A stretch of 33,646 nucleotides of DNA from positions 48,172 to 81,817 of the forward strand of contig NHCB01000005.1 in assembly GCA_002167745.1 (NCBI GenBank), in the 5' to 3' direction. Shown piece after piece: positions 1,489 through 21,126 of the stretch. Every line of letters begins with the position of its first letter. Within the stretch, counting starts at the first letter, position 1. Position numbers and translations under genes: made by a program. This DNA is from Betaproteobacteria bacterium TMED22 (GTDB lineage Bacteria > Pseudomonadota > Gammaproteobacteria > Burkholderiales > Eutrophovitaceae). Under the pieces are notes generated by a model, which was not told the DNA's origin, made no database searches, and was given only the letters and a program-made list of their open reading frames with translations.

Positions 1489-1521
1489 AAAAGTAGCATT
1501 TTTCGAGAGTATCTAAAATGC
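1487..1521 (-). terminator. Candidate rho-independent terminator of the leftward operon
   Basis: On the minus strand GCATTTT, a 12-base loop, AAAATGC, then TAC and six T residues follow each other. The left stem covers the last codons and stop of the SDR gene that ends at 1513. The stem is only seven pairs and AT-rich, so strength is uncertain. Its position at the end of an eight-gene leftward series, facing an opposing gene, supports the call. Confidence 0.4.
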
Positions 1522-2295
1522 ACCACCTCTCGAGCCATGTCCGCCATCGACGTTAATAACGATTCCACTCATATATGAAGCGCGATCAGAAGCAAGAAAT
1601 GTCACCACATCAGCAACCTCACTGGTTTTTGCTGCGCGGCCGTGTGGTAAGCCCTGCAGTAATTCTTGCCATCGGTCTTCGCTACCTAACTCTGAGCTCG
1701 CTTTAGTCTTCATTAGCGTCACTAAACGATCCGTCTCAACTGCGCCTGGACTAACCGCCAAACAACGAATGCCATCTTTGAAACTATTACTTCCCAACGT
1801 TCGAGAAAAAGCATTCAAAGAAGCGTTCGCTGAAGACCCTGCAATGTAATGCGTATCTAATCGGTCGGCAGCTAACCCAGTCACATTAATGATGACTCCA
1901 GACTGTTTTTCCATCATCATTTTATAAATAGCACGACTCAAATTGATATAACCAAACACTTTTAATTCCCAAGCATTACGCCACTTTTGTTCATCGATAC
2001 TCTGTAAATCCCCTCCAGCTATTGCCCCAGCGTTATTGACCAAAATATCGATCGGTCCTGACGCATCCAAAAGTATCGGGATATTCTCTGATTTCGACAA
2101 ATCAAGAGCGCTATAAGTAATCCGGCCTTGAGCAGACTCATTTAGCTGAGACGTTAAATCCCTTAAAACATCGTTGGAACGAGCAACCATGTGAACAGTA
2201 CAGCCTTCTGCTAAAAGGCTCCGCGTAATGGCCAAACCAATACCCTTGGACGCACCAGTCACAATAACGCGTTTTCCACTCAAATTTAGGTTCAT
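1513..2295 (-). CDS. Atypical SDR family protein lacking the YxxxK lysine
   Basis: This 260-residue protein has the SDR Rossmann fold: TGASKGIG at 13-20, Arg39 in a position that suits NADP, NNAG at 87-90, and a C-terminal NVDGG. The active site is unusual. Where classical SDRs have Tyr-x-x-x-Lys this one reads Y150-I-A-G-S154, and the region three residues after Asn137 has Gly140 rather than the usual Ser. The helix-4 Asn of the tetrad is replaced by Lys112. It may be an SDR subfamily with a rearranged active site, or a binding or regulatory relative. The start is supported by AGGGG six bases upstream of ATG. It is the last gene of the leftward eight-gene series, 39 bases after the acyl-CoA dehydrogenase, and its stop overlaps a candidate terminator. 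Confidence 0.9.
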   Translation of the reverse strand: MNLNLSGKRVIVTGASKGIGLAITRSLLAEGCTVHMVARSNDVLRDLTSQLNESAQGRITYSALDLSKSENIPILLDASGPIDILVNNAGAIAGGDLQSIDEQKWRNAWELKVFGYINLSRAIYKMMMEKQSGVIINVTGLAADRLDTHYIAGSSANASLNAFSRTLGSNSFKDGIRCLAVSPGAVETDRLVTLMKTKASSELGSEDRWQELLQGLPHGRAAKTSEVADVVTFLASDRASYMSGIVINVDGGHGSRGGAF

Positions 2296-2334
2296 AAAAT
2301 ACCCCTAATTAAGTTCGATGTTCTGAGGTGCGTC

Positions 2335-3495
2335 TTAGAAAGACCGAGGCATACCAAGAATATGCTCCGCGGTGTAAGACAAAATTAAATTGGTAGATAT
2401 TGGTGCCACTTGGTAAAGTCGGGTTTCTCGAAACTTCCTCTCAATATCATATTCAGAAGCGAAGCCAAATCCACCATGGGTTTGGATACAAACGTTAGCC
2501 GCTTCCCAAGACGCTTTAGCAGCCAAATATTTCGCCATATTAGATTCTGAACCACATGGCCTGTTTACATCAAATAGTTCGCATGCTTTCCAGCGCATGA
2601 GATTGGCCGCCTCAACCTCAATGAAAGACTCAGCGATCGGAAACTGAATCCCTTGATTCTGACCAATAGGTCTATCAAAAACAATTCTCTCATTCGCATA
2701 ATTAGTTGCTCGATCAATAAACCAATAACCATCACCAATACACTCGGCCGCGATCAAAGTTCTCTCTGCATTTAACCCGTCCAAGATGTACTTAAAACCT
2801 TTACCTTCCTCTCCAATTAAATTCTCGACAGGAATCTCTAATTCATCAAAAAACAATTCATTAGTTTCATGATTCACCATATTTTCAATCGGCCGAACCG
2901 TGAGCCCATTCTTAATGGCATGGTGTAAATCAACTATAAAAATCGACATGCCTTCAGACTTTTTCTTCACCTCTTGCAACGGCGTTGTTCTCGCAAGCAA
3001 AATCATAAGATCGGAGTGTTGCACCCTAGAGATCCACACCTTCTGGCCATTGACCACATACCGATCTCCTTTCTTTATCGCGACTGTTTTTATTTTTGTT
3101 GTATCCGTGCCTGTAGTGGGTTCCGTCACCCCCATAGATTGCAAACGAAGGGCACCTTTAGCAATTGCGGGTAAATATTGCTTTTTCTGCTCATCGGAGC
3201 CATGGCGCAATAACGTACCCATATTGTACATTTGACCATGGCAAGCACCCGCGTTACCACCTGACCGATTGATTTCTTCCATGATCACAGATGCCTCCGC
3301 AAGACCCAGTCCGGAACCACCGTACCCCTCAGGAATCATTGCCGACAACCAGCCAGCCTCGGTTAACGCCTTCACAAACTCCTCTGGATACCCTCTTTGA
3401 GAATCGATCGATCGGTGATATTCGTCCTTAAATTGACTACAAACTGCTCTAACACCATCTCTTATTTCTTGATATCGATCTTCATCGATAGACAT
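2335..3495 (-). CDS. Acyl-CoA dehydrogenase family protein
   Basis: This FAD-dependent acyl-CoA dehydrogenase of 386 residues (family-typical) introduces an alpha,beta double bond into an acyl-CoA and passes electrons to ETF. The N-terminal helical domain spans about 1-115. The FAD-binding strand region includes MGVTEPTTGTD (121-131) and KVWIS (152-156). The C-terminal helical domain has QTHGGFGF (338-345). The C-terminal position that holds the catalytic Glu in short- and medium-chain enzymes reads QVAPIST and has no acid. Glu244 in GLNAER instead aligns with the helix-G glutamate used by isovaleryl-CoA and long-chain dehydrogenases, which is compatible with a branched substrate. An AAGGA site precedes the ATG. 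It lies 29 bases after the MaoC-type hydratase gene, so the two likely act on successive intermediates. Confidence 0.93.
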   Translation of the reverse strand: MSIDEDRYQEIRDGVRAVCSQFKDEYHRSIDSQRGYPEEFVKALTEAGWLSAMIPEGYGGSGLGLAEASVIMEEINRSGGNAGACHGQMYNMGTLLRHGSDEQKKQYLPAIAKGALRLQSMGVTEPTTGTDTTKIKTVAIKKGDRYVVNGQKVWISRVQHSDLMILLARTTPLQEVKKKSEGMSIFIVDLHHAIKNGLTVRPIENMVNHETNELFFDELEIPVENLIGEEGKGFKYILDGLNAERTLIAAECIGDGYWFIDRATNYANERIVFDRPIGQNQGIQFPIAESFIEVEAANLMRWKACELFDVNRPCGSESNMAKYLAAKASWEAANVCIQTHGGFGFASEYDIERKFRETRLYQVAPISTNLILSYTAEHILGMPRSF

Positions 3496-3524
3496 AGTTT
3501 TTTGTCCTTATAATTTCAATTGTA

Positions 3525-4376
3525 TTAGCGCTCACACGTGGCCTGCGCTTCCATAGCAGTATGGCCTAAATAGTCCGTCGCCCACAAATTATAAACGCCC
3601 GGTGTTTCTTCCCTCCCGTGCATGACAAAAGCGTGATTATCAAACAACGGCTTTATGGCTCGAAAACGAAAACCAGTGAGCTTTATGTCGTTACTTTGGG
3701 ACAATAGAAGTTGCGCCAAATGAGTCGCAGTCAAGGGACCATGAAATACAAGTCCAGGATAACCCTCCTCTTCATTACAATATTTGCGATCATAATGAAT
3801 ACGATGACCGTTAAACGTTAACGCGGAATATCGAAATAACGTAACTGGATTTGGAAAAATTTCGAGCGAGAAGTCAGAAGACATCTCAGCCGTTTGATAA
3901 CTGGGTACAGAAACGCCCTCCGGCATCAAGTCGCGATAAACAATGTCATGCTCTTCATTAATCAACACACCATGATCATCAAGAATCTGATGCGCGACGG
4001 TCACAAAAACCATTTCTCCAGTGCGTCCCTTCTTAGAAACAATATCTTTAATGCTTGATACTCGGCGAATCTCTTCACCCACTTTGATATGACGATAAAA
4101 ATCTAGTCGGCCCCCTGCCCACATCCTTCTTGGCAAATCAACTGGAGGTAAAAACCCTCCTCGCTCCGGATGACCATCGTAACCCAGTTCCGCAAACGGC
4201 ACAGCCGGCGCAAAAAACATCCAATGCCACAAACTTGGCAGCTCTTGACCATGGATTGGCTTAGGACATGGCATATTTAACGTAGCGTACATCTTAGATA
4301 CACGCGACTCATCCACAAAATCCATGCTGGTTTCAGAACGACCTATCCACTCGCTGAAAGGTTTTTCAGAATTCAT
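3525..4376 (-). CDS. MaoC/HTD2-type double-hotdog acyl-CoA hydratase (mesaconyl-C4-CoA / itaconyl-CoA hydratase-like)
   Basis: This 283-residue protein has the two-hotdog layout of the COG3777/HTD2 hydratases. The N-terminal FAS1-like dehydratase half (about 1-145) contains the family segment around LPPVDLPRRMWAGGRL. The C-terminal MaoC half carries ALTFNGHRIHYD followed by GYPGLVFHGPL, with the His/Asp pair of the hydratase active site. Characterised relatives hydrate mesaconyl-C4-CoA (3-hydroxypropionate bicycle) and itaconyl-CoA (itaconate catabolism); closely related enzymes in other clusters act on other branched enoyl-CoAs. It lies between the aldehyde dehydrogenase and acyl-CoA dehydrogenase genes, with a CaiB-type CoA-transferase two genes upstream. 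This resembles the hydratase/dehydrogenase pairing next to a CoA-transferase in itaconate gene sets. No CitE-type citramalyl-CoA lyase is present in the window. There is no strong ribosome site at the chosen start. Confidence 0.88.
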   Translation of the reverse strand: MNSEKPFSEWIGRSETSMDFVDESRVSKMYATLNMPCPKPIHGQELPSLWHWMFFAPAVPFAELGYDGHPERGGFLPPVDLPRRMWAGGRLDFYRHIKVGEEIRRVSSIKDIVSKKGRTGEMVFVTVAHQILDDHGVLINEEHDIVYRDLMPEGVSVPSYQTAEMSSDFSLEIFPNPVTLFRYSALTFNGHRIHYDRKYCNEEEGYPGLVFHGPLTATHLAQLLLSQSNDIKLTGFRFRAIKPLFDNHAFVMHGREETPGVYNLWATDYLGHTAMEAQATCER

Positions 4377-4422
4377 TAAATCGAACGACTAAGGGTAGCA
4401 AGCGTAAGGCGTGTCATCGTTA

Positions 4423-5877
4423 TCATTCGTGAAAATGAACGATGGTCTTGGTCGTTGTGAAATGTTCCAGCGCCACGAAACCTTTTTCTCGTCCGTGCCC
4501 ACTTTTTTTCATCCCACCGAAAGGTAGTTCAACCCCTCCACCAGCGCCAAAATTATTGATAAATACCTGCCCGCAATTCATACGCTTGGCGACTCGCTGC
4601 TGCCGATTACCATCCTTTGTCCATACTGAACCGACCAAACCATAATCAGTTGCATTAGCTAAATAAATAGCATCGGACTCATCCTCAAAAGGAATGGCTG
4701 AAAGCACTGGACCAAAAACCTCATCACACGCTAAGCGGTGATCGCGAGGTACATTTCCAAAAAGTGCCGGCTTCACCCAAAAACCGCTTTGATCTAAACC
4801 TTCGGCAAACTCTCCCTCAGCGAGTAATTCAATACCCGAACTGATTGCATCTGCCCTGAATCCCTCTACAAGCTGTTGCTGTTTGGCATTCATGACAGGA
4901 CCACAATCAAGATCCATGTCAGGCGTACCAACTCGCACCTTGGAGAACTGAGCACTTACTTGAGTCATAAATTCGTTATAAATTTCGTTCTGAAGCAAAA
5001 TTCGGCTTCCTGCTGAACAAGTCTGTCCCGCGTGTTGGATAATTGCCTTCACAACAACGGGGAGTGCCTTATCTAAATCAGCATCTGCAAATACAAGTTG
5101 CGGCGACTTTCCACCCAACTCCAATGTACAACCGACGAAATGATTCGCCGTGGCCTGCTGAACCAGAGTGCCAACTCGAGGAGATCCCGTAAAACTCATG
5201 AAATTGATCCCTGGATGATTGGCCAAAGCAGCGCCCGCGCGATCTCCCAATCCAGTAACTATATTCAAAGCACCAGCCGGAAGGCCAGCTTCTAGGGCAA
5301 GTTGAGACATAACTAACGTACTCAAACATGCATCTTCAGACGGTTTAACCACCGCCGCGTTCCCAACTGCCAAAGCTGGACCGACACTGCGGCCGAACTG
5401 TTGAGCGGGATAATTCCAAGGAATAATGTGTGCCGTTACGCCATAAGGTACTCGGTGCACATTGACGCTGTATCCATCTAAGTACGGAATAACCTGACCA
5501 TGAAGCTTATCCGCCGCTCCTGCGTAGAATTCAAAATAACGGGCGGTTGCAGTAATATCAGCTCGACCAGCGGTAATAGGCTTTCCTGTATCCTTAGATT
5601 CGAGCGCAGCTAACTCTTCAAAGTTTTCCATAATGAGTTGAGACCAACGATGCATAATTCGACTGCGCTCCACAGGAGCCATCCTGCCCCAACTGCCATC
5701 TAACGCACTCTGTGCCGCGCAAACGGCACTATTGATATCAGCATCATCACTATCGGGAATCGTTGCGAAAGCACGTCCGTTACATGGATCAATCATATCT
5801 AAAGAACGGCCGCTCTGAGCCGAGATGGATTTGCCGTCAACCAAGTTTGAATACGTTTTTGATTGTGTTTCTGACAT
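4423..5877 (-). CDS. NAD(P)-dependent aldehyde dehydrogenase
   Basis: This full-length ALDH superfamily protein (484 residues) oxidises an aldehyde to a carboxylic acid. Asn155 (IIPWNYP), Lys178 (VVKPSE), general base Glu253 (LELGGKSP) and nucleophile Cys287 (GQTCSAGSR) are all present, so it should be active. Overall it resembles betaine-aldehyde or gamma-aminobutyraldehyde dehydrogenases, but ALDH substrates cannot be read from motifs. GGAG seven bases before ATG supports the start. In the leftward operon it follows the split ThDP decarboxylase and CoA-transferase genes. An economical reading is that the decarboxylase makes an aldehyde, this enzyme oxidises it, and the transferase adds CoA. 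Confidence 0.95.
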   Translation of the reverse strand: MSETQSKTYSNLVDGKSISAQSGRSLDMIDPCNGRAFATIPDSDDADINSAVCAAQSALDGSWGRMAPVERSRIMHRWSQLIMENFEELAALESKDTGKPITAGRADITATARYFEFYAGAADKLHGQVIPYLDGYSVNVHRVPYGVTAHIIPWNYPAQQFGRSVGPALAVGNAAVVKPSEDACLSTLVMSQLALEAGLPAGALNIVTGLGDRAGAALANHPGINFMSFTGSPRVGTLVQQATANHFVGCTLELGGKSPQLVFADADLDKALPVVVKAIIQHAGQTCSAGSRILLQNEIYNEFMTQVSAQFSKVRVGTPDMDLDCGPVMNAKQQQLVEGFRADAISSGIELLAEGEFAEGLDQSGFWVKPALFGNVPRDHRLACDEVFGPVLSAIPFEDESDAIYLANATDYGLVGSVWTKDGNRQQRVAKRMNCGQVFINNFGAGGGVELPFGGMKKSGHGREKGFVALEHFTTTKTIVHFHE

Positions 5878-5944
5878 TTCTCACTCCATAATATTTCTAG
5901 TTTATAAAAATAATCTTCGGATTTACTGCGCTAATTGAACGCCA

Positions 5945-7123
5945 CTAGATGACGCGCGAGCTCTCTAACTCCTTAATGTCCTCATCGCTGTAACCTAATT
6001 CCGAAAGGATCCGCTTTGAATGCTCCCCAGGATCGGGAATAGGGTCCATACGCGGAGAAAACTCTTCCGGCGCACCTGGAGGAAGCATCGCTTTGACGGG
6101 CCCATTCGATGACCGCACAAATCTCCATCTATCTCGCGCGGCAAGCTGCGCATGATCCCAAACTTGCTTCATTGAGTTCATGGAGGCATTCCCAATTCTC
6201 GCAGCGTCTAATCGCTCAGTAACTGTGGTTAACGTCATGTCAGAAAAAACTTCTTCAATAATGGAATGAAGTGCACTACGAGATTCTGACCGTCGGGTAT
6301 TAGATGAGAATCGAACATCGTCTCTCAGTTCTGGTTGTTGGAGCACCTGATCACAAAATATTGCCCACTCACGCTCATTTTGCAGCCCCAACATCACCGT
6401 GTTCCCGTCGCCAATGGGGAATGGCCCATATGGATAGATGGTTGCGTGAGAGGCACCAGTTCGCGCAGGTGGCTCTGCTTCTTGGTAAGCGTAATACAAT
6501 GGGAAGCTCATCCACTCAGTCATTGTTTCAAGCATCGATATGTCTATACGACATCCTGTCCCCGTTTTTTGACGACGAATAATTGCTGCAAGAATATTAC
6601 TGAATGCATACATCCCAGCAGAAATATCAACAATCGAACACCCTGCCTTTGCGGGCTCATCATCGGAACCCGTAACGGACAAAAGTCCCGACTCTGCTTG
6701 GATCAACAGGTCGTATGCCTTCTTATCTCGATAAGGTCCGTTTGATCCGTATCCAGAAATATCACAAACAATTAATTTTGGATAACGCTCTTTCAACTGC
6801 TCATAGGAGAACCCCATTCGCTCTGAAGCGCCCGGCGCTAAGTTTTGCAGAAGTACATCCGCCCTCTCCAAAAGTTTACGAACAACTTCGATACCCTCAG
6901 GTTGTTTCAAGTCAAGAGTGATACTTTCTTTGGATCGGTTTGTCCATACAAAATGGGAAGCCAATCCACTCACTCGGTCATCATAAGCTCGGGTAGGGTC
7001 ACCGCCTCCAGGTCTTTCTATCTTGATGACTCGAGCTCCGAGATCTGCTAACTGTCGCGTACAAAATGGACCTGCTATGACATGCTCAAGCGCGACAACC
7101 GTTATTCCTTCAAGTGGACGCAT
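5945..7123 (-). CDS. CaiB/BaiF family CoA-transferase (class III)
   Basis: This 392-residue family III CoA-transferase moves CoA between carboxylic acids through an aspartyl-CoA anhydride. The N-terminal signature AGPFCTRQLADLGA (17-30) is followed by the strand IKIERPGGGDPTR. Asp138 in KAYDLLIQAESG matches the catalytic aspartate. The motif and length resemble the subgroup that includes succinyl-CoA:mesaconate/itaconate-type transferases, but also many unassigned members. It would activate a free acid made or imported by the pathway, feeding the acyl-CoA dehydrogenase and hydratase encoded just downstream. The upstream gap of 77 bases is the widest in this operon and the ribosome site is weak. 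Confidence 0.93.
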   Translation of the reverse strand: MRPLEGITVVALEHVIAGPFCTRQLADLGARVIKIERPGGGDPTRAYDDRVSGLASHFVWTNRSKESITLDLKQPEGIEVVRKLLERADVLLQNLAPGASERMGFSYEQLKERYPKLIVCDISGYGSNGPYRDKKAYDLLIQAESGLLSVTGSDDEPAKAGCSIVDISAGMYAFSNILAAIIRRQKTGTGCRIDISMLETMTEWMSFPLYYAYQEAEPPARTGASHATIYPYGPFPIGDGNTVMLGLQNEREWAIFCDQVLQQPELRDDVRFSSNTRRSESRSALHSIIEEVFSDMTLTTVTERLDAARIGNASMNSMKQVWDHAQLAARDRWRFVRSSNGPVKAMLPPGAPEEFSPRMDPIPDPGEHSKRILSELGYSDEDIKELESSRVI

Positions 7124-7200
7124 ATTTGCTTTTTTCCTGTTACGTTACTCTTGGTATTCTTAGATGCAGATGAATGCTGCGACGCTACCCTGACGAAATC

Positions 7201-7788
7201 TCAATTCGATAAATGACATTGATCTCCAAGCAAGGCTTCTCTAAATCGATTTTTCAACAATGCCCCGTCTCTCGGTGGAAGCACGAGTTCATCTGATTGA
7301 GGATCAACTTTGACTTGGGCAAAAATTAATCCCGAACCGTCTAAATCTTTTTTCAGAGCAACAAGTTCAGAATTGCTCCTAATTATAGAAGAATTTGAAA
7401 ATCCACATGCACTTGCGATAGACATTAAATCAACTCCAAAACCCGTATGTGTTTTTTGTTTTCCTGTCTCTCCGTAAATCTCATTATCCAAAACAACAAT
7501 TGCAAGATTTTTCGGTTGACTCACACCAACGGTTGCTAGCGAATTAAGCCCCATCAATAACTCCCCGTCACCCGTGACAACCAAAACACGCTTTCGAGGT
7601 TGCGCTAATGCTAGCCCAAGTCCAGTTGTGATTGCTCCGCCCATTCCTCCCCACATTGGAAAATTTAACGCGTGATCACCTGCCGCCGTTATATCCCAAG
7701 CAGGCGCACCTAATCCAGCAATTACCAAAAGATCGTCTCTAGGACTCAATAAACATGCCACCACTTCTCTACGATTTAATAAGGTCAT
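7201..7788 (-). CDS. ThDP-dependent decarboxylase, PP-domain subunit (ComE / sulfopyruvate decarboxylase beta-like)
   Basis: This is a stand-alone pyrophosphate-binding domain of a thiamin diphosphate enzyme (195 residues). The ThDP/Mg signature GDG (73-75) followed by Asn102 in VVLDNEIYG is clear, and MWGGMGGAITTGLGLA (45-60) is the usual strand-helix before it. The protein has no Pyr domain of its own; the adjacent upstream gene supplies it. This split is known for sulfopyruvate decarboxylase (ComD/ComE of coenzyme M synthesis, also in sulfonate catabolism), with fused relatives acting on phosphonopyruvate. The active enzyme should be a heteromer that decarboxylates a 2-oxoacid to an aldehyde. 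No sulfoacetaldehyde acetyltransferase (Xsc) or coenzyme M gene is nearby, so sulfopyruvate is not assured as substrate. Confidence 0.88.
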   Translation of the reverse strand: MTLLNRREVVACLLSPRDDLLVIAGLGAPAWDITAAGDHALNFPMWGGMGGAITTGLGLALAQPRKRVLVVTGDGELLMGLNSLATVGVSQPKNLAIVVLDNEIYGETGKQKTHTGFGVDLMSIASACGFSNSSIIRSNSELVALKKDLDGSGLIFAQVKVDPQSDELVLPPRDGALLKNRFREALLGDQCHLSN

Positions 7789-7829
7789 CTTTTTTTTCCA
7801 GACTATATGCGATTTTTATCATGTCCAAA

Positions 7830-8351
7830 TTAACGGCCAAAAGTCTTCGCCCCCAGCACTCGCTGACCAATTAGTAACGCAGTCGGTCTATATGTATTAA
7901 ACGCCAGACGGATGCTGCCCTCGGCGCAAGCTTCGACCTGGTTATTTTCTTGAGCTTTAAAGGTCGTTACGCCCATCTCTTTCAACACAGACTCGGTCCC
8001 TTGGCCCATTGGTACTTGCCAAGGGTTAAACTCACCCCAATCGCCACGCATGGTCACAATCATAGGCAAAGGCACCTGACACGTATTCAACATAGAGAGC
8101 ATATTGACGCAATTACCAACCCCACTTGACTGCATCAGTAGCATACTTTTCTTACCACCGAGCCAGCCACCCATTGCCAAGGAGATACCCTCCTGCTCAG
8201 AAGTCAGTCGCACAGTCTGGATAGGATTGTGCGCAACGCATAACTCAATTAACTGAGAAAGACCTGCATCAGGAACAAAACTCACCAAAGAGATATCATG
8301 ATCACAGATTAAGTCGAATACTGATTCACTCCAATGTTTTTCAAGACCCAT
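7830..8351 (-). CDS. ThDP-dependent decarboxylase, Pyr-domain subunit (ComD / sulfopyruvate decarboxylase alpha-like)
   Basis: This 173-residue protein is a free-standing Pyr domain of a ThDP enzyme. The segment LTSEQEGISLAMGGWLGGK (49-67) holds the acidic residue (Glu52 or Glu54) that activates the thiazolium, as in ComD. QSSGVGN followed by a Met/Leu-rich helix is the second family hallmark. It pairs with the PP-domain gene 41 bases downstream, in the same order as comD-comE. The expected role is decarboxylation of a 2-oxoacid, perhaps one with an extra charged or branched group. No clear ribosome site precedes the ATG, and only 15 bases separate it from the upstream oxidoreductase gene, which suggests translational coupling. 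Confidence 0.88.
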   Translation of the reverse strand: MGLEKHWSESVFDLICDHDISLVSFVPDAGLSQLIELCVAHNPIQTVRLTSEQEGISLAMGGWLGGKKSMLLMQSSGVGNCVNMLSMLNTCQVPLPMIVTMRGDWGEFNPWQVPMGQGTESVLKEMGVTTFKAQENNQVEACAEGSIRLAFNTYRPTALLIGQRVLGAKTFGR

Positions 8352-8366
8352 AATATTTTAAAAAAA

Positions 8367-9383: not shown

Positions 9384-9464
9384 TGAAACTCCTTAAATAA
9401 ATTTTTAACATTTACTTCTTTCATCTTCGCTTCCAACACCAGACATTATAAAAGTAAATTTTAA

Positions 9465-9478: not shown

Positions 9479-9556
9479 AGCGAGTTAAAATTGGACGTGA
9501 ATCATCACCTGGATAAACACTATAAACCAATTCAGAATCGCACAAGGAAATACATT

Positions 9557-10618: not shown

Positions 10619-10654
10619 ACATCTTGTAAATAACCCAATTAGGAAATAAAAGTA

Positions 10655-11965: not shown

Positions 11966-12028
11966 TTGAGGCTGAGACGAGCGAAACACTAAGCAAAAAA
12001 ACTTTACTTTTTGATGTGGAGAAGTGAA

Positions 12029-12955: not shown

Positions 12956-12989
12956 CGATCATCAAAAGTAATCAATACAGGAGATGGAG

Positions 12990-14468
12990 ATGGAACGATT
13001 TAAGATGTACATTAATGGTGAGTTTGTGGAGGCCTCATCTGGCAAATGGTTTGATAGCTATGATCCATTCAGCGGTGAGGTTTGGTCCCAAGTGGCCGAG
13101 GGCGGGCCCGCAGACGTAAATCGTGCGGTAGAGGCAGCACATGAAGCATTCGCCACTGGTCCATGGTCAGAAATGACGGCAAGCCAACGTGGCATGCTCG
13201 TGCACAAACTTGGCGATCTAATCGCGCGTGACGCTCAAAAACTTGCGCAGTTAGAAGTACAAGACAATGGAAAACTCATTGCGGAAATGCAAGGCCAAGT
13301 CAATTATGTTCCTCAATGGTATTACTACTTTGGTGGACTTGCCGACAAAATTGAAGGCGCGGTCATCCCAATCGACAAAAAGGGTTACTTCAACTTCACA
13401 CGTCATGAGCCAATCGGTGTTGTTGCGGCGATTACCGCATGGAATTCACCACTCTTACTACTGGCTTGGAAATTAGCACCGGCTCTTGCCGCAGGTTGTA
13501 CAGTTGTCATTAAACCTTCAGAGTTCACATCGGCATCTACCCTCGAGTTTGTGACATTGGTTAAAGAAGCCGGCTTCCCCGACGGAGTTGTCAATGTAGT
13601 CACTGGTTTCGGGAGAGATGTTGGTGAACCACTCACGAATCACCCCCTCGTTCGAAAAATTGCATTCACTGGTTCCGATGCCACAGGAAGAGTAATTAAT
13701 GAGGTTGCGGCAAAATCATTCAAACGCGTCACGCTTGAACTTGGAGGAAAATCTCCCAATATTGTGTTTGATGATGCTAATTTAAACGACGCAGTTAACG
13801 GAGCAGTATCAGGCATATTTGCAGCCACTGGACAAACTTGTATCGCTGGATCCCGTTTGCTTCTGCAAGAAACTATCTATGACGAATTTATGGATAAATT
13901 GATCTCGCTCGCGAAAACTGCGCGTATGGGAAACCCGATGAGTACCGAAACTCAGGTGGGTCCCATCACAACAAAACCACAATATGAAAAAGTACTCGGC
14001 TACATTGATATAGCCAAAACCGAGGGCGCTAAGCTAGCGCTTGGAGGTACACCAGCGACCAGACCCGAATGCGGGAATGGATGGTTCATTGAACCGACAG
14101 TCTTCACAGGAGTTACAAATGATATGAGGATTGCCCAAGAAGAGGTGTTCGGCCCGGTGCTTTCAGTCATTAAGTTTAAAGATGAGGAAGAGGCAATAAA
14201 AATCGCAAATGATGTTCGATTTGGTTTAGGCTCAGGCGTTTGGACAAGTGACATAGGACGCGCAATACGGATGTCCGAAAAAATTCAAGCAGGAACGGTT
14301 TGGGTTAACACATATCGAGCTGTGAGTTACATGTCTCCATTTGGAGGATATAAAGATTCGGGTGTAGGTCGAGAAAGCGGTATTGAGGCGATATATCAAT
14401 ACCTTCAAACCAAGAGTGTATGGATTAATACCGGCGCAAAAACCGGCAATCCGTTTGTTCTCAAATAG
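12990..14468 (+). CDS. NAD(P)-dependent aldehyde dehydrogenase
   Basis: This is the second full-length ALDH of the island (492 residues from ATG 12990, eight bases after AGGAG; an ATG at 12984 sits too close to that site). Asn at TAWNSP, Lys at VIKPSE, Glu at LELGGKSP and the nucleophile Cys at GQTCIAGSR (about residue 284) are all present. It differs clearly from the ALDH of the leftward arm, so the two should have different aldehyde substrates. It sits 34 bases after the ketopantoate-reductase-like gene and 26 bases before a zinc alcohol dehydrogenase. An alcohol to aldehyde to acid sequence by these neighbours is the natural reading. Confidence 0.95.
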   Translation: MERFKMYINGEFVEASSGKWFDSYDPFSGEVWSQVAEGGPADVNRAVEAAHEAFATGPWSEMTASQRGMLVHKLGDLIARDAQKLAQLEVQDNGKLIAEMQGQVNYVPQWYYYFGGLADKIEGAVIPIDKKGYFNFTRHEPIGVVAAITAWNSPLLLLAWKLAPALAAGCTVVIKPSEFTSASTLEFVTLVKEAGFPDGVVNVVTGFGRDVGEPLTNHPLVRKIAFTGSDATGRVINEVAAKSFKRVTLELGGKSPNIVFDDANLNDAVNGAVSGIFAATGQTCIAGSRLLLQETIYDEFMDKLISLAKTARMGNPMSTETQVGPITTKPQYEKVLGYIDIAKTEGAKLALGGTPATRPECGNGWFIEPTVFTGVTNDMRIAQEEVFGPVLSVIKFKDEEEAIKIANDVRFGLGSGVWTSDIGRAIRMSEKIQAGTVWVNTYRAVSYMSPFGGYKDSGVGRESGIEAIYQYLQTKSVWINTGAKTGNPFVLK

Positions 14469-14494
14469 CAGCGTTAAATTTAGGGAGTTTTAAC

Positions 14495-15547
14495 ATGAAA
14501 GGTATTGTTTTCCCCGGTAGCAAAAAACTCGAAATTCTAAACTTTCCGGATCCGACACCAGGCCACGGAGAGGTTGTTTTAGAGATCAAAGCATCTGGCA
14601 TGTGCGGTAGTGACCTTAAGTTCTATCGAGCGGAAGGTGGTGCGTCCTCTCTAGGCCTAGGAGATCTTGATGGACCAATAATTGCAGGCCATGAACCCTG
14701 CGGTATTGTTGTAAGCGTTGGCGAGGGAGTCCCTGAGAACGTTGCCAAAGAAGGTATGCGCGTTATGCAACACCACTACCGAGGTTGCGGATCTTGTGAG
14801 CACTGCTCCACCGGTTGGGAACAGCTATGCATTGAAGGAGTAAAAGATGTCTTCGGTGTAACTGGGCACGGAGCGCATGCCAAGTACATGAAATGTCCAG
14901 CGAGAACTCTTGTGTCCCTTCCTGAAGAACTGTCATTCAAGGCAGGAGCAGCGATATCATGTGGCACGGGTACTGCCTGGGGTGCATTGCAACGCCTAGA
15001 ACTGAAGGGAGATCAAACAATCGCCGTTTTTGGTCAAGGACCTGTTGGCTTATCCGCCACACTGCTTGCCTCCCAAATGGGAGCTCGCGTAATCGCTCTT
15101 GATACGGGTGAAGAACGATTACAAAGAGCAAAAGAATTTGGAGCGGCAATATTGATTAATCCAACCAAAACGGAAGATGTCGTTCAAGCTATAAGAGACG
15201 TTACACACGGCCATGGTGCTCACGGGTCATTAGATTGCTCTTCAGCTCCGATCGCACGCAGTCAAGCTGTACAGTGTGTTCGAACTTGGGGCAAAGCATG
15301 CTTTGTTGGTGAAGGTGATATCGTTACGCTGAATGTCAGTAACGATATGTTGCGACGCCAAGTGACTATTATCGGTTCATGGACATTCTCAAAGGTAGGT
15401 CAGGCTAAGTGTGCCGAATATGTGGCGGATAAAGAAATTTCTTTGGATGCGCTATTTACACATGAATGGAAACTAGACCAAGCTCAAGAGGCTTACGAAC
15501 TCTTTGATCTGCAAAACACAGGAAAAGGCGTGATTGACCCCTCATGA
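14495..15547 (+). CDS. Zinc-dependent alcohol dehydrogenase (MDR, threonine/sorbitol-dehydrogenase-like)
   Basis: This 350-residue medium-chain dehydrogenase keeps both zinc sites. Catalytic ligands are Cys37 (GMCGSD) and His66/Glu67 (AGHEP). The structural zinc loop has Cys98, Cys101, Cys104 and Cys112 in GCGSCEHCSTGWEQLC. The NAD-binding domain has FGQGPVGLSA, and the acidic end of beta-2 (VIALDTGEE) favours NAD. It should oxidise a primary or secondary alcohol, or a hydroxy acid. Located between an ALDH and an alpha/beta hydrolase in a tight rightward operon, it probably supplies the aldehyde for the neighbouring ALDH. Confidence 0.94.
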   Translation: MKGIVFPGSKKLEILNFPDPTPGHGEVVLEIKASGMCGSDLKFYRAEGGASSLGLGDLDGPIIAGHEPCGIVVSVGEGVPENVAKEGMRVMQHHYRGCGSCEHCSTGWEQLCIEGVKDVFGVTGHGAHAKYMKCPARTLVSLPEELSFKAGAAISCGTGTAWGALQRLELKGDQTIAVFGQGPVGLSATLLASQMGARVIALDTGEERLQRAKEFGAAILINPTKTEDVVQAIRDVTHGHGAHGSLDCSSAPIARSQAVQCVRTWGKACFVGEGDIVTLNVSNDMLRRQVTIIGSWTFSKVGQAKCAEYVADKEISLDALFTHEWKLDQAQEAYELFDLQNTGKGVIDPS

Positions 15548-15586
15548 TCATAAATGTCTTAAAGCTAATATGGGAGAAGTGTGTCC

Positions 15587-16453
15587 ATGTTTAAGGGCTT
15601 TAAACTAAAAACCATCGAGGTCAACCATACTTCGATTCGAATAAGGATTGGAGGAGAGGGCCCCCCTATTCTCTTATTACATGGCAACCCCCAAACACAC
15701 GTCATGTGGCACGCAGTAGCGCCAGAACTCAGTAAACGATTTACAGTCATTGCTGCTGACCTGACGGGATACGGTGATAGCTATAAACCTCAGTCCACTG
15801 AAGACCACATCGCGTACAGCAAGCGTTCGATGGCGAATGATCAAGTCAATATGATGCTTGCACTTGGATTTGAGACATTCAGCGTTGCTGGACATGACCG
15901 AGGTGGTCGAGTCGCGTACCGGATGGCACTTGATCACCCAACTGTCGTCGAAAAACTGGCGGTTCTGGACATTATTCCCACATTAGAATCATTCCAACGC
16001 TGTGATACAAAATTTAGCTTAGGGTATTATCACTGGTTTTTCTTGGCTCAACCCAGTCCATTCCCCGAAACTTTGATTAGTCAGAACCCAGAGAAATTTT
16101 GGCGCTGGCACACAAATCGCGTCTCGCGAGATTTCTTCACTCAAACTGCGGTAGAGGATTACCTTAGATGCTTTAGGAATCCTGAAACGGTCCGAGCTAT
16201 TTGCGAAGATTATCGAGCAGCCATATCAATTGATTGCGAACATGACCTTATTGATCAACAAAATAATCATAAAATTACCTGTCCAGTTCTAGCGTTATGG
16301 GGTAAGCAAGCGAAACTAGAGCAGTGGTACGATACAATTGAAGTTTGGCGATCATGGGCTACCAAGGTTGAAGGATTCGGAATTGATTGCGGACATTACT
16401 TAGCCGAGGAAGAGCCAGAACAAACCACTCAGGCGCTAAGTGATTTCTTTTAG
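15587..16453 (+). CDS. Alpha/beta hydrolase, haloacetate (fluoroacetate) dehalogenase-like
   Basis: This 288-residue alpha/beta hydrolase has the full active-site set of fluoroacetate dehalogenases. Counting from the ATG at 15587 (GGGAGAA eight bases upstream; GTG at 15581 is an alternative), the nucleophile Asp104, carboxylate-binding Arg105 and Arg108 lie in GHDRGGR. Asp128 in VLDIIPT is the acid. His149-Trp150 in YYHWFF and Tyr209 in EDYRAA form the halide and substrate pocket, and His270 in DCGHYL is the base. The oxyanion segment is LLHGNPQTH. Spacings match Burkholderia FAc-DEX and Rhodopseudomonas RPA1163 almost residue for residue. Relatives hydrolyse fluoro- or chloroacetate to glycolate, though natural substrates of many members are unknown. 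It is followed 26 bases later by a second hydrolase of the same fold. Confidence 0.9.
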   Translation: MFKGFKLKTIEVNHTSIRIRIGGEGPPILLLHGNPQTHVMWHAVAPELSKRFTVIAADLTGYGDSYKPQSTEDHIAYSKRSMANDQVNMMLALGFETFSVAGHDRGGRVAYRMALDHPTVVEKLAVLDIIPTLESFQRCDTKFSLGYYHWFFLAQPSPFPETLISQNPEKFWRWHTNRVSRDFFTQTAVEDYLRCFRNPETVRAICEDYRAAISIDCEHDLIDQQNNHKITCPVLALWGKQAKLEQWYDTIEVWRSWATKVEGFGIDCGHYLAEEEPEQTTQALSDFF

Positions 16454-16479
16454 AATAAAAATTACTTTGGATCAAAGCA

Positions 16480-17346
16480 ATGATTGATGTAACTCATCAC
16501 CACTTCGAGACCAGAGATGTTCGGTTACACTACGTAACAGCAGGCTCGGGCTATCCCATAGTATTACTGCATGGTTGGCCTCAAAGTTGGTATTCCTGGC
16601 ATAAATTAATACCGACACTGGCAAAAAAATACTCCATCATTGCGCCCGACCTAAGAGGACTTGGTGATTCTTCGAGACCATCATCAGGGTACGAAAAGGC
16701 AAATATTGCCGAAGATATTAGACTTTTAGTTCAGGAGCACCTCGGGATTGATCAATATTATTTAATAGCTCATGACTGGGGCGGTCCAGTAGCGTTCGTG
16801 CTCGCATCGGAGAACGCCCAGTGCGTTAAGAAGCTAGTAATGCTAGACACAGCCGTTCCGGGCGATGGAAGCGGAACTTTCTCTCAAAACGGTAGACGCT
16901 GGCACCACGCCTTTCATCAAACAAAAGGGCTTCCAGAGGCTTTAGTCTCAGGAAGAGAAGAAATTTATTTTGGGTGGTTTTACGATAATTATGGTTATCA
17001 AAAAAATGCAATCAGCCAAGAGGATCAAATTGAGTACCTGAGGACTTATAAAAAGCCTGACACACTTCGATCCGGCTTTGCCTATTACCGTGCTCTTGAT
17101 GAGGACGTCCGCTATAACGAAGAGCTACTTCGACTAAATGGAAAACTTACTATGCCGGTTTTAGCCTTCGGTGGCGGGAGCACTTTTGGTCGGGGAATAG
17201 AAACTTTTGAATCACTTACGCGTGTTAGCAAAAACGTCAGTGGTGGTGTCATCCAGGACTGTGGTCATTGGATACAAGAAGAAAAACCTACAGAGGTTCT
17301 AGACTACATTATGCCCTTTTTTGAATCAGAGTCATTAACCATTTGA
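16480..17346 (+). CDS. Alpha/beta hydrolase, epoxide hydrolase-like
   Basis: This 288-residue alpha/beta hydrolase has oxyanion motif LLHGWPQSW (29-37), nucleophile Asp99 in AHDWGGPVA and base His263 in DCGHW. An Asp nucleophile followed by Trp-Gly-Gly is typical of epoxide hydrolases and haloalkane dehalogenases, not esterases. The Arg residues that bind carboxylate in the neighbouring dehalogenase-like protein are absent here. A tyrosine-rich lid with GWFYDNYGY and AYYRAL is compatible with epoxide opening. It is the last gene of the rightward operon and ends five bases before the stop of the convergent SDR gene. Epoxide hydrolase is the best guess; a dehalogenase or C-C hydrolase role is possible. 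Confidence 0.9.
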   Translation: MIDVTHHHFETRDVRLHYVTAGSGYPIVLLHGWPQSWYSWHKLIPTLAKKYSIIAPDLRGLGDSSRPSSGYEKANIAEDIRLLVQEHLGIDQYYLIAHDWGGPVAFVLASENAQCVKKLVMLDTAVPGDGSGTFSQNGRRWHHAFHQTKGLPEALVSGREEIYFGWFYDNYGYQKNAISQEDQIEYLRTYKKPDTLRSGFAYYRALDEDVRYNEELLRLNGKLTMPVLAFGGGSTFGRGIETFESLTRVSKNVSGGVIQDCGHWIQEEKPTEVLDYIMPFFESESLTI

Positions 17347-17351
17347 AGAAA

Positions 17352-18131
17352 TCACTGTGCGGTCCAACCTCCATCTACGATCAGGTGGGTACCAGTAACC
17401 ATTGAGGCTGCAGGCGATGCAAGATAGACCGCTGCAGCTGCAACATCCTCTAATTTCGCCAGACGTCCCATGGGAATCCTCGACGTGACGAACTCTTTTT
17501 TCTCAGGAGTGTCAACGATACGCTTGACCATAGGTGTCTCAGAAAATGTAGGCCCAATGCTATTGATACGGATATTTTGTTCGGCCAACTCCACCGCCAT
17601 CGCTTTAGTAAGCCCCTCTATCGCGTGTTTAGTCATGCAATAAACCGTTCTGTTAGGTGAGCCTACATGTCCCATCTGAGAGGACATATTAACGACACAC
17701 GCACCTTTTTCATGTATGTCTTCAGACCTCAACATCACTTGGACTGCTGATTGCGCAGCCACAAAACAAGCCCGAACATTTAAATCCAGCATTCTGTCCA
17801 GATGGTGGTCGCTGACCTCAAGAAAAGGTTCTGGAAAATTTGTACCCGCGTTATTAACCAGGATATCCAAACGCGTTAAACCGCCTATCGCACTTCGCAA
17901 TTTTTGATCGTCTGTCACGTCACACACGATGACGGAGGCGTCACCGCCATCTTGACGAATAGAATCTGCAGTTTCTTGGAGGTGACTTTCGGTCCGTCCT
18001 AATAAGATAACGGACGCACCAGCCTTAGCATAAGCCTTGGAAATCGACGCTCCTAAACCTTGACCCGCCCCTGTCACCAACGCAACACGCCCATCGAGGC
18101 GGAAAGAAGTCATTGAAAACTGGTCCACCAA
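17352..18131 (-). CDS. SDR family oxidoreductase
   Basis: This is a classical SDR of about 254-259 residues. TGAGQGLG is the cofactor loop, Arg in LLGRTESH suggests NADP, NNAG is present, and the Ser, Tyr and Lys triad is visible in NMSSQMGHVG and VYCMTK. DLNVRACF keeps the tetrad Asn. It is closest in style to gluconate 5-dehydrogenase and 3-oxoacyl reductase-like SDRs. The start is uncertain: TTG at 18131, GTG at 18128 or ATG at 18113 are in frame, and GGTGG ten bases before the ATG makes 18113 reasonable. It follows the sodium:solute symporter gene, with a strong hairpin between, and probably acts on the imported compound or its first product. Confidence 0.92.
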   Translation of the reverse strand: MVDQFSMTSFRLDGRVALVTGAGQGLGASISKAYAKAGASVILLGRTESHLQETADSIRQDGGDASVIVCDVTDDQKLRSAIGGLTRLDILVNNAGTNFPEPFLEVSDHHLDRMLDLNVRACFVAAQSAVQVMLRSEDIHEKGACVVNMSSQMGHVGSPNRTVYCMTKHAIEGLTKAMAVELAEQNIRINSIGPTFSETPMVKRIVDTPEKKEFVTSRIPMGRLAKLEDVAAAAVYLASPAASMVTGTHLIVDGGWTAQ

Positions 18132-18151
18132 CTCTACCTACCTATTTCCTT

Positions 18152-18190
18152 CCTCACGAAGTACTTAAGCTACTCGCTTACTTCGTGGGG
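18152..18190 (-). other. Intercistronic stem-loop between the symporter and SDR genes
   Basis: On the minus strand CACGAAGTAAGC, a 5-base loop, and GCTTAAGTACTTCGTG pair as a 12-base-pair stem with one 4-base bulge. It covers the symporter stop codon and ends beside the purine-rich ribosome site region of the SDR gene. There is no T-run after it, so it is not a normal terminator. It looks like an mRNA-stabilising or processing hairpin, or an attenuating structure, that sets a different level for the two genes. Confidence 0.6.
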
Positions 18191-19725
18191 TTAGCAGGCA
18201 CAGACTCACCGAACATATCGTCAACATGCGCCTGCGGCAGCTTTTTGGTAAAGAGGCTGACTACGATCATTGTTACCGCTGCAGCGATAATACATGTACC
18301 CGCGATCGCAAACGGATTTTTAAAAGGTACGTCTTTCAGCACGAAGCAGTAAATGATACCCACCCCAAAGCTAATAACGCCTACGAGGAAAGAAGCGATC
18401 GCGCCAGTTTTTGTCGCTCCCTTCCATAAAGAGCCGACTAATAGTGGTCCAGTAGCACCGGCTAAAATACCGCCAACTCCAATCCAAAGCAGTACCACTA
18501 AGAACTGAGGTGGATTCCAAGCTAACCAACAAGCAACCACGCCCACGACTACAATTGCAACACGGGAAATATTAAGAGCAATCTGCTCAACCTGCTCTTT
18601 GGACTTATTTTTATGTATCACAGGGGCAAACGTTTTTTTATACAAATCATTACTGAAAATCACGGCTATCGAGATGAATAGCCCATCAGAGGTAGACATT
18701 ATTGCCGACAACACACCAACACCTAACAACCCAGCAAGAAATGGTGGGAAGAGCTGCGTGAACAAAACAGGAATCGCTTGATCCGGTCTGATGACATCAC
18801 CAAAATCGGCACCAAATAACGCCCGGGCATGCAAGCCGCCTAAAACAGTGAAACCCAAAATTGAGCCCACCGGAATAGCGATTAATAAAAAAGTTCTTAT
18901 TTGTTTGGGATCCTTTAACGCAAATGCCAGTTTGCCAATATGAGGATTCATTGCAAATGGAATGTGTGCGATGAAAATCAGAGAAATTAACCAGAAACTG
19001 CCAAAGACAACATCTCCTTCCTTAAAGTAATTATCCCAACCCAAACTTGGATCTTGTTTCACAAGCGCATCATTAATTAAAGACGGACCAGTTCCTTCAA
19101 AACCGACGCCCAAGAAGAAGATCACTCCGATAATGAGTCCGATCAAAACCATCATCACACCCTGAATCCCGTCAGTCATAATGTCGGCGTGAGAACCACC
19201 CATCGTAATGTACAGCGCAATAACAGCGACACTCGCCAAAATTCCATGCTGGTAATTCAAACCGAGCAGTACCTCAAAAATGGTCGCAGCCGCTACGATT
19301 TGAGCGGCAATGTAGTAAACAAGCAGCATTGAGACCAGTGCAAATGCGATTCTCAGGAAATTACTGTTGTAACGCTGCCCCATGAATTCAGGTAAGGAAT
19401 TTGAGCGAAATTTATCTCCGGCTCGCTTAATTAATTTAATCGCTAAAATCATTCCAACGTATATGGCAATTGGATACGTCGCTGGATACCAAAGGGTCGC
19501 GAATCCCTTCGAATAGGCCATGCCGGGCAAACTCATAAAAGTCGCACCACTGGCAATTGTTGCCGCAAAAGCAAACGCCAAAGTAACAGGGCCGTAAGAC
19601 CCACGAGCAACTGCGAAGTCCTCATCGTTACTCGTCTTTCGCATACCCCAAATTCCAATTCCGATGAATAGTGCCAAAAACACAACTACCCACGCCCATC
19701 CCCAGAGTCCGATATATGTATCCAT
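18178..19725 (-). CDS. Sodium:solute symporter (SSF family)
   Basis: This 515-residue, strongly hydrophobic protein has about 13 predicted membrane helices and sits in the inner membrane. SSF hallmarks include the early FAATIASGATFMSLPG segment (TM2) and the GVLSAIMSTSDGLFISIAVI region (TM8), which carries the Ser/Thr residues used for sodium in the family. The family imports organic acids, pantothenate, proline, sugars and more, so the substrate is open. A small one-helix protein gene lies directly upstream and an SDR gene directly downstream. Its position beside the catabolic island suggests it brings in the substrate of that pathway. Confidence 0.94.
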   Translation of the reverse strand: MDTYIGLWGWAWVVVFLALFIGIGIWGMRKTSNDEDFAVARGSYGPVTLAFAFAATIASGATFMSLPGMAYSKGFATLWYPATYPIAIYVGMILAIKLIKRAGDKFRSNSLPEFMGQRYNSNFLRIAFALVSMLLVYYIAAQIVAAATIFEVLLGLNYQHGILASVAVIALYITMGGSHADIMTDGIQGVMMVLIGLIIGVIFFLGVGFEGTGPSLINDALVKQDPSLGWDNYFKEGDVVFGSFWLISLIFIAHIPFAMNPHIGKLAFALKDPKQIRTFLLIAIPVGSILGFTVLGGLHARALFGADFGDVIRPDQAIPVLFTQLFPPFLAGLLGVGVLSAIMSTSDGLFISIAVIFSNDLYKKTFAPVIHKNKSKEQVEQIALNISRVAIVVVGVVACWLAWNPPQFLVVLLWIGVGGILAGATGPLLVGSLWKGATKTGAIASFLVGVISFGVGIIYCFVLKDVPFKNPFAIAGTCIIAAAVTMIVVSLFTKKLPQAHVDDMFGESVPANPTK

Positions 19726-19783
19726 GATTATTTGCTCTTTTTGAATTTATTTAAAATGACTGCATATTGTTTCGATATATGCT

Positions 19784-19879
19784 TTATTCCCAATCGGACT
19801 CAGATACTTTTGCGATCCAGGTCATCCCGATTACCCAGTAAGCTACAACGACGATGCAAACGAGTGTCAAAACGTTCAT
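19784..19879 (-). CDS. 31-residue single-helix membrane peptide upstream of the SSF symporter
   Basis: This short gene begins at ATG 19879, eight bases after GGGGG, an excellent ribosome site, and ends with TAA at 19784. The peptide has a helix MNVLTLVCIVVVAYWVIGMT followed by a charged tail WIAKVSESDWE. One membrane helix with a short acidic C-terminal tail directly before a sodium symporter gene matches small transporter-accessory subunits such as MetS for the MetP transporter or small proteins next to SSF symporters. It probably binds or stabilises the symporter encoded 58 bases downstream. A second in-frame ATG at 19885 sits too close to the ribosome site. Confidence 0.72.
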   Translation of the reverse strand: MNVLTLVCIVVVAYWVIGMTWIAKVSESDWE

Positions 19880-21100: not shown

Positions 21101-21126
21101 TAACAGAAAAAGAGACCTCGATACTC

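Follow-up and report, generated by a model that had tools for sequence, protein, structure and literature searches.

A divergent gene block in a betaproteobacterial draft genome, probably a new gene arrangement built on a known methylsuccinate/itaconate trunk

A stretch of 33,646 nucleotides (the window) from Betaproteobacteria bacterium TMED22 (contig NHCB01000005.1, positions 48,172 to 81,817) carries a block of about 19 predicted catabolic genes at 1513-19879. The block consists of a left arm on the minus strand, a divergent right arm on the plus strand, and then an SDR oxidoreductase gene and an SSF sodium/solute symporter gene on the minus strand. It is best read as a real gene block that places a new arrangement, with a novel front end, around a known trunk. 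We think it fairly probable that the island is a hub for the catabolism of branched C5 dicarboxylates, in which two aldehyde-forming feeders supply a methylsuccinate/itaconate trunk. The genome containing the window is a 1.88 Mb draft in 17 contigs (about 95% complete). Its nearest named relatives are marine-type 'Betaproteobacteria' metagenome-assembled genomes (MAGs), such as North Sea HE361-14_B37, whose ComE is 93% identical.

The trunk is recognizable by its similarity to characterized enzymes. The acyl-CoA dehydrogenase (ACAD) of the left arm is 76.7% identical (386 aa) to a dehydrogenase of a P. aeruginosa plasmid cluster (L076) and 82.2% identical to a Variovorax one. The CaiB family CoA-transferase is 62.5% identical over 389 aa to the transferase Ict of the same plasmid cluster. 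The hydratase, called HTD2-type in an earlier sequence-only reading of this DNA, retains the motifs TFN-HRIHYD and EGYPGL of the P. aeruginosa hydratase Ich, and its closest solved structure by sequence is itaconyl-CoA hydratase 8khg. Judged by similarity, the three proteins would belong to the methylsuccinate/itaconate cluster as Mcd, Ict and Ich. The activities of Mcd, Ict ((R)-methylsuccinate/itaconate CoA-transferase) and Ich were reported in 2025 for the C. necator/P. aeruginosa cluster (PMC12290011). A second paper reports the transfer of this itaconate/methylsuccinate cluster to P. putida, whose wild type (KT2440) it describes as growing on none of the branched acids tested (PMC9875883). 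From gene order and annotation, the plasmid proteins appear to be PA0878-PA0883. Clustered Mcd-, Ict- and Ich-type genes are common to the window and to the P. aeruginosa/C. necator cluster, which has the order ich-mcd-mmgE-ict-ccl (PMC12290011, PMC9875883). In contrast to that cluster, the window is without the (S)-citramalyl-CoA lyase Ccl and the methylsuccinate isomerase Msi, and has an SSF symporter in place of a TRAP transporter. It adds a ComDE-like thiamine diphosphate (ThDP) decarboxylase, two aldehyde dehydrogenases (ALDH1, ALDH2), a tartrate/D-malate-type dehydrogenase (TTC), an MDR reductase, a zinc alcohol dehydrogenase (ADH), hydrolases and PanE. The sequence-only reading could assign the combination to no described pathway. 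That view has to be given up for ACAD, CaiB and the hydratase, but it holds for the front end (the ComDE-like pair, TTC, ADH, hydrolases, PanE and VOC). No experimentally described counterpart of the front end was found, and no paper on the gene combination stood among the results listed from an open-access library with few subscription journals.

The route given here is inferred, and so are all its substrates, the direction in which TTC works and the functions of the hydrolases ABH1 and ABH2, PanE, VOC, ECH, the SDRs and SSF. In this route, the Ict-type CaiB protein would attach CoA to methylsuccinate (or itaconate). The Mcd-type dehydrogenase would then form mesaconyl-C4-CoA, and the Ich-type hydratase would form (S)-citramalyl-CoA. 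A lyase encoded elsewhere, for which a RipC/Ccl-like gene (G000:C8) is a candidate, would split this product into acetyl-CoA and pyruvate. Both feeders would yield the semialdehyde of the same acid. In the first, TTC would produce a 2-oxo acid by oxidative decarboxylation, the ComDE-like pair would turn it into an aldehyde, and ALDH1 or ALDH2 would oxidize the aldehyde to the acid; the substrate of ComDE is most likely an analogue of 2-oxoglutarate (4-methyl- or 4-methylene-2-oxoglutarate). In the second, encoded by the VOC-PanE-ALDH-ADH-hydrolase operon, ABH1 and ABH2 would free a hydroxy acid, ADH would oxidize it, and ALDH2 would complete the oxidation. MDR, PanE and VOC may adjust the carbon skeleton, and SSF with a 31-residue partner is the probable importer.

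Both feeders are linked to the trunk in other lineages. The linkage survey covered 300 genomes of the order. A ComD cut-off of E <= 1e-40, chosen after viewing the match list, gave 56 ComD places in 54 genomes, and distances were measured with 95 listed Mcd places, 30 ADH places and, for ComD-ABH1, all 126 ABH1 places. ComD lies within 10 kb of Mcd in 19 of the 54 genomes and in 14 of the 49 outside the window's genus; these 14 come from three genera, namely g3, which belongs to the same family, f46/g48 and f13/g15. The controls ComD-ADH and ComD-ABH1 each reached this distance in 3/54 genomes and in 0/49 outside the genus. ADH (at least 70% identity) is carried by 22 genomes, and in 9 of them it stands no more than 15 kb from Mcd; outside the genus the count is 6 of 16, in two genera. 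Binomial figures for these linkages count every genome as independent, but the cases outside the genus come from so few genera. In family f29 (L195/L196; G029, G284), Mcd-Ict-Ccl is followed within about 2 kb by ALDH2-ADH-ABH1-PanE. In family f23 (L205; G023), ADH and PanE flank an Ict-Ccl-MDR-Ich-Mcd run within about 10 kb. Since right-arm genes stand by the trunk in L195, L196 and L205, both arms connect to the same trunk. The surroundings of ComDE in f23 genomes showed no trunk genes. Such genes stand together in other genomes too: an Mcd-Ich-MDR-Ict run in G118, the VOC-PanE-ALDH2-ADH-ABH1 run in G084 and G148, and, in G070, Ict, MDR, ABH2, ABH1, ADH, ALDH2 and PanE together with proteins read from sequence as a TRAP transporter.

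Several findings weigh against this hub, and they concern the trunk itself, the position of the arms in a related genus, and the breadth of the protein families involved. The Ich-type hydratase is just 44% identical to the P. aeruginosa Ich. The window contains no Ccl, the genome's closest counterpart of the Variovorax Ccl is 34% identical, and no close citramalyl-CoA lyase was found among the listed genomes of family f1 (best 34-37%). Msi was not found, as the locus (L083) of the sole PF03972 gene of the genome, which is about 95% complete, had no tblastn match to the P. aeruginosa Msi at 1e-5. A missing lyase would be accounted for if ComDE acted downstream of the trunk. In that scheme, Ich and a thioesterase would yield 3-methylmalate, TTC would convert it to 2-oxobutyrate, and ComDE with ALDH1 would produce propionate for the methylcitrate cycle. 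TTC is indeed among the decarboxylating dehydrogenases of malate-type acids, and the MmgE/PrpD gene elsewhere in the genome could serve the methylcitrate cycle. A CoA ester lyase, however, accompanies ComDE and ALDH in Bosea, Variovorax, Mesorhizobium, Haematobacter and Deinococcus QL22, in stretches whose annotation includes no tartrate dehydrogenase. Decarboxylation of 2-oxobutyrate would also be energetically wasteful compared with oxidative routes. Moreover, the genome has a RipC/Ccl-like candidate (G000:C8:66372-67172; L080, beside an MFS transporter), which scores 247.4 bits with the RipC_Ccl model compared with 157.7 for the P. aeruginosa Ccl, though the cut-off is 375. We regard a downstream role of ComDE as improbable. 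A methylcitrate gene inside the island was excluded, because the only MmgE/PrpD gene of the genome sits on contig C11.

The position of the arms differs between the window's genus and the sister genus g3. Within the former, the order of the block is largely kept. In G018 (L031 and L032), the block lies on one contig with ECH and ABH2 missing, so that these two genes may be dispensable. G109 has all block genes, split over two contigs. L114 shows the same order up to ADH, where the stretch ends, and contig ends interrupt the block in G276, G216 and G301. G246, of the same genus, gave no ComD or Mcd match. A complete contiguous set was seen in the window only, but the order recurs in G018, G109 and L114 and is therefore not an assembly accident. 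In g3, the left arm minus its first SDR is kept together with TTC (L038, L040). In two single-contig genomes of that genus, ADH lies 98 kb from Mcd (G148) or 2.1 Mb from it along the contig, about 1.5 Mb if circular (G185). The g3 symporter is present as two tandem copies adjoining an SDR. It lies about 8 kb from right-arm genes in G148; in G185 its distance to ABH1 is about 110 kb, and a shortened ALDH2 there has a transposase beside it. Arms that are 98 kb or about 2 Mb apart in g3 make the single island genus-specific. The proposal that the two arms and the symporter travel as a unit thus fails in g3, an outcome that the sequence-only reading had set as the refutation of its single pathway. 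The proposal of one pathway gains from the joining of both arms to the same trunk outside the family and loses from their lack of linkage in g3; it stands, with the one island being a feature of the window's genus.

The same distances are what two separate pathways, adjacent in a streamlined genome, would produce. The left arm would then handle methylsuccinate and 2-oxo acids as a module of its own, whereas an unrelated alcohol, ester or halo-acid would be the business of the right arm and SSF. This fits the retention in g3 of SSF-SDR and of ALDH2-ADH-ABH1-ABH2 without ComDE, as well as the alignment of ABH1 at the active-site positions of fluoroacetate dehalogenase. It does not fit the right-arm genes that lie within about 2 kb of Mcd, Ict and Ccl in f29, the full trunk flanked by ADH and PanE in f23, or the nature of ALDH2, which is a ComDE-type aldehyde dehydrogenase. 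We consider two unrelated pathways rather unlikely.

Breadth is the remaining difficulty for the branched C5-dicarboxylate hub. Mcd is present in 53/54 ComD genomes against 34/246 others, but the ABH1 control is nearly as high (47/54 against 49/246), and genome-level co-occurrence was discarded as evidence. At E <= 0.001, ComD relatives occur in 65/300 genomes of the order, and they occur on plasmids too; 5 of the 6 genomes of the genus have ComD, which is absent from the matches in G246. Neighbors were clustered in 134 loci, nearly all fetched for ComDE, with four (L075-L078) fetched by ACAD, two of these without ComDE. The 134 include seven loci of the window's genus, among which L115 is the L033 contig and L116, whose contig has the same length, probably that of L035. 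After ComE and ComD, the top partners are CaiB/Ict (21 loci), ACAD/Mcd (21) and ALDH2 (20), and the independent counts are lower because the seven genus loci and the four ACAD-fetched loci are included. Antisense open reading frames (ORFs) in GC-rich genomes masked many ComE and ComD genes, whose clusters hold 75 and 47 loci. Comparison of the ComE sequences reduced 131 loci to 126 distinct rows, with Mcd at 26, Ict at 24 and ALDH2 at 28. Eighty loci were fetched by ComE similarity alone, three of them from the window's genus. In the examined stretches of the 77 others, which are the nearest by ComE, Mcd occurs in 6, Ict in 5 and ALDH2 in 9. The family is therefore broad: most of its members have no trunk genes close by, and a link to methylsuccinate recurs in a minority of them. 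Mcd is present in 8 of 13 hand-picked ComDE plasmid regions. Loci truncated by contig ends, those of the window's genus included, may conceal further neighbors. Mapped onto a quick tree of ComE, the Mcd label takes 12 changes, against a shuffled mean of 24.8; starred branches force at least four of them. The association of ComDE with Mcd has probably been gained or lost more than once.

L169, from the Pelagibacterales MAG SP94 (labelled SAR11), has ComDE with Mcd-type (64% to a Sphingobium gene), Ict-type and Ich-type genes; its ComE row is of odd composition, so that contamination or transfer may be involved. The ComDE-like loci L128, L151, L152, L175 and L133 belong to MAGs that were filed under the names Bordetella parapertussis or Klebsiella pneumoniae, which look wrong.

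The ComDE-like pair resembles sulfopyruvate decarboxylase ComDE, a two-subunit ThDP enzyme, in matching the same alpha and beta models, and the GDG and DN positions of ComE are invariant among 18 aligned sequences. Coenzyme M genes are the usual context of ComDE, whereas the neighbors of the window pair are dicarboxylate-CoA genes. Both subunits are under the sulfopyruvate decarboxylase cut-offs (Table 1). With the phosphonopyruvate decarboxylase model TIGR03297 (cut-off 312.5), ComE scores 106.1 and ComD 67.9, and the chains are separate. A plain sulfopyruvate or phosphonopyruvate decarboxylase was dropped on account of these scores. Split ThDP decarboxylases with other substrates exist. RhiEF is said to act on phosphonopyruvate. 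LumK/LumL of lumichrome catabolism is another split enzyme recruited for an unusual substrate, but it differs in that this substrate is a quinoxaline and the genes lie in an aromatic-degradation cluster (PMC12746152).

ComDE and TTC might instead take part in ordinary sulfopyruvate, phosphonopyruvate or tartrate/hydroxypyruvate metabolism, for example with tartrate-derived hydroxypyruvate converted to glycolaldehyde, the other genes being incidental. TTC passes the tartrate dehydrogenase model, and on a plasmid of a peanut Bradyrhizobium an ALDH2-like gene lies by ThDP genes and tartrate dehydrogenase. The low scores of ComD and ComE with the sulfopyruvate and phosphonopyruvate models argue against such a role, which would also leave the repeated linkage of ComDE to Mcd, Ict and Ich across lineages unexplained. 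We judge it very improbable. The nearest solved structure to TTC is tartrate dehydrogenase 3flk (503 bits; query 9554-10618). The match of TTC to 3flk is full length, and that to TIGR02089 is above the cut-off. TTC may thus simply handle tartrate or D-malate, a point against the hub, and 3-methylmalate is an equally possible substrate. What sets TTC apart from 3flk-type enzymes is its place: in genera g1 and g3 it stands divergently next to ComDE and the trunk genes.

In favor of the hub, ALDH2 may connect the two feeders. It is far closer to ComDE-adjacent aldehyde dehydrogenases of Bosea and Variovorax (Table 1) than ALDH1 is (38-40%), and at least 9 of 40 listed plasmid records with ALDH2-like genes have ComE within 10 kb. 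ALDH2 is thus the type that adjoins ComDE elsewhere, which suggests that one and the same aldehyde comes from ComDE and from ADH. Some ALDH2-like genes have different neighbors, a further point on the opposing side. The Rhizobium phaseoli plasmid pRphaR744a (L210) has one by an isocitrate/isopropylmalate-family dehydrogenase and a type II haloacid dehalogenase, a set that echoes TTC, ABH1 and ALDH2 of the window. On plasmid p1 of Bradyrhizobium sp. 62B from peanut nodules (L214), one adjoins a pair of thiamine pyrophosphate genes, and genes for tartrate dehydrogenase and glycerate kinase are close by. When plasmids were searched with ADH, PanE and ABH1, all records fell under 60% identity, and the Salipiger and Acidovorax plasmid regions have no annotated trunk genes.

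ABH1 appears to have the active site of a fluoroacetate dehalogenase. In its alignment with 5k3d, the positions that we take to hold the nucleophile Asp, the Arg pair, the acid, His-Trp, Tyr and the base His correspond. It aligns over its full length with the 3r3u family and keeps the catalytic, carboxylate-binding and halide-binding positions. Unlike those enzymes, it sits in an ALDH-ADH-PanE operon, and dehalogenation is putative.

The neighbors of ComDE in other lineages offer clues to its substrate. By annotation, Mcd- or Ict-linked ComDE loci include a dehydrogenase of the glutamate family (L084), an aminotransferase together with a 5-oxoprolinase subunit (L087), a 5-oxoprolinase subunit (L071, L088), and isocitrate dehydrogenase with MmgE/PrpD (L077). 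L085, with ComDE and no trunk genes, has aconitase, MmgE/PrpD and tricarballylate dehydrogenase. Because these enzymes act on glutamate-, 2-oxoglutarate- or isocitrate-shaped molecules, our best guess for the ComDE substrate is 4-methyl- or 4-methylene-2-oxoglutarate. L084, on plasmid p53363 of Bradyrhizobium guangxiense from peanut, combines genes for a glutamate-family dehydrogenase, ComDE, ALDH, Ich, Ict, 5-oxoprolinase and biotin carboxylase. Mcd is not present in the examined stretch of L084, as would be expected for a 4-methylene substrate, which would deliver itaconate. Peanut is rich in 4-methyleneglutamine, and L084 is a candidate 4-methyleneglutamate-to-itaconate cluster of peanut symbionts. 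A literature search on methyleneglutamate and the candidate substrate names yielded nothing useful. Pantoate/dimethylmalate catabolism was set aside, as it fits PanE, ADH, ALDH and TTC but not Mcd, Ict and Ich. Butenolide or tulipalin-type lactones and isoprene-derived diols were also considered and set aside.

Genes were called by ORF calling with NCBIfam and Pfam scans, with PDB sequence comparison for some proteins (Table 1), and every gene listed in the sequence-only reading was recovered in this way. Neighboring genes are separated by 15-77 bp within the left arm and by 26-63 bp within the right arm, apart from 192 bp ahead of the VOC gene; about 170 bp lies between the two divergent arms. 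The VOC-like gene was unnamed in the earlier list; its 108-aa product looks VOC/glyoxalase-fold from our own reading of the sequence and from weak extradiol dioxygenase matches, and relatives (48-56%) adjoin PanE in L198 and L204. The short symporter partner proposed earlier is real. Similar single-helix-like peptides of 29-31 residues beginning MNVLTL lie directly upstream of SSF in both genera (L031, L092, L095, L102, L104, L106, L107 and L109). The peptide matches no NCBIfam family, and a literature search on it gave nothing useful. Near SSF, the window has an RND adaptor and permease pair (20063-24201) followed by LOG, AsnC and aceE, as in g3 (L104). The iron transport genes feoB and feoA lie at its right end (31081-33164).

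Table 1. Genes of the block, with positions in the window and the basis of each assignment
Feature	Position	Strand	Basis
SDR oxidoreductase, PRK06125 subfamily	1513..2295	-	NCBIfam NF004779, 340.9 bits (cut-off 261)
Acyl-CoA dehydrogenase ACAD, Mcd-type ((RS)-methylsuccinyl-C4-CoA dehydrogenase)	2335..3495	-	76.7%/386 aa to L076 P. aeruginosa plasmid copy
Ich-type hydratase (itaconyl-CoA / mesaconyl-C4-CoA), earlier HTD2-type, FAS1_DH	3525..4376	-	PDB 8khg, E=1.2e-70
Aldehyde dehydrogenase ALDH1	4423..5877	-	Pfam Aldedh; beside ComDE in sister genus g3 too (76%)
CaiB family CoA-transferase, Ict-type	5945..7123	-	62.5% over 389 aa to Ict of L076
ThDP decarboxylase beta subunit, ComE-like	7201..7788	-	TIGR03846, 137.1 bits, under cut-off 221.5
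ThDP decarboxylase alpha subunit, ComD-like	7830..8351	-	TIGR03845, 117.6 bits, under cut-off 147.95
MDR zinc-type reductase/dehydrogenase	8367..9383	-	Profile scan; 63-64% relatives in Ict(-Mcd) clusters of other families (L197, L205, L206)
Tartrate/D-malate-type decarboxylating dehydrogenase TTC	9557..10618	+	TIGR02089, 531.8 (cut-off 470.4; query 9491-10618)
Crotonase/enoyl-CoA hydratase family ECH (PRK09245)	10655..11446	+	NF006699, 400 (cut-off 354)
VOC/glyoxalase-like protein, 108 aa	11639..11965	+	Weak extradiol-dioxygenase matches
PanE/ApbA-type reductase	12029..12955	+	TIGR00745, 228 bits (cut-off 141; query 12011-12955)
Aldehyde dehydrogenase ALDH2	12984..14468	+	63.7/70.5% to Bosea/Variovorax ComDE-adjacent ALDH
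Zinc alcohol dehydrogenase ADH	14495..15547	+	Pfam ADH_N/ADH_zinc_N
Alpha/beta hydrolase ABH1, fluoroacetate-dehalogenase-like	15581..16453	+	PDB 3qyj, 5.8e-96; 5k3d/3r3u, ~3e-86
Alpha/beta hydrolase ABH2, epoxide-hydrolase/dehalogenase-like	16480..17346	+	NCBIfam/Pfam
SDR oxidoreductase	17352..18131	-	NCBIfam/Pfam; adjoins SSF in g1 and g3
SSF sodium/solute symporter	18178..19725	-	Pfam PF00474; g3 relatives 76-77%
31-residue membrane peptide, symporter partner	19784..19879	-	Translation; similar peptides ahead of SSF

Methylsuccinate/itaconate genes are common among saprophytic bacteria, and only with the discovery that gut bacteria reduce itaconate did it become clear where methylsuccinate comes from, according to the 2025 paper (PMC12290011). 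That the trunk is repeatedly joined either to a 2-oxo-acid decarboxylase or to an operon of alcohol dehydrogenase and hydrolase genes gives a lead to the substrates upstream. We tentatively propose, as a possibility that is still rather doubtful, that the ComDE-like pair is the first 4-methyl-/4-methylene-2-oxoglutarate decarboxylase and, together with ALDH, defines a widespread bacterial route to intracellular methylsuccinate/itaconate that starts from branched natural products resembling glutamate, pyroglutamate or isocitrate. Through the ADH/hydrolase operon, a C5 hydroxy acid or a lactone would reach this semialdehyde by a second entry. If this is true, the ComDE route supplies a source of methylsuccinate, and a single chemistry would connect small-genome marine Betaproteobacteria, the MAG labelled Pelagibacterales (L169), rhizobia and Deinococcus plasmids.

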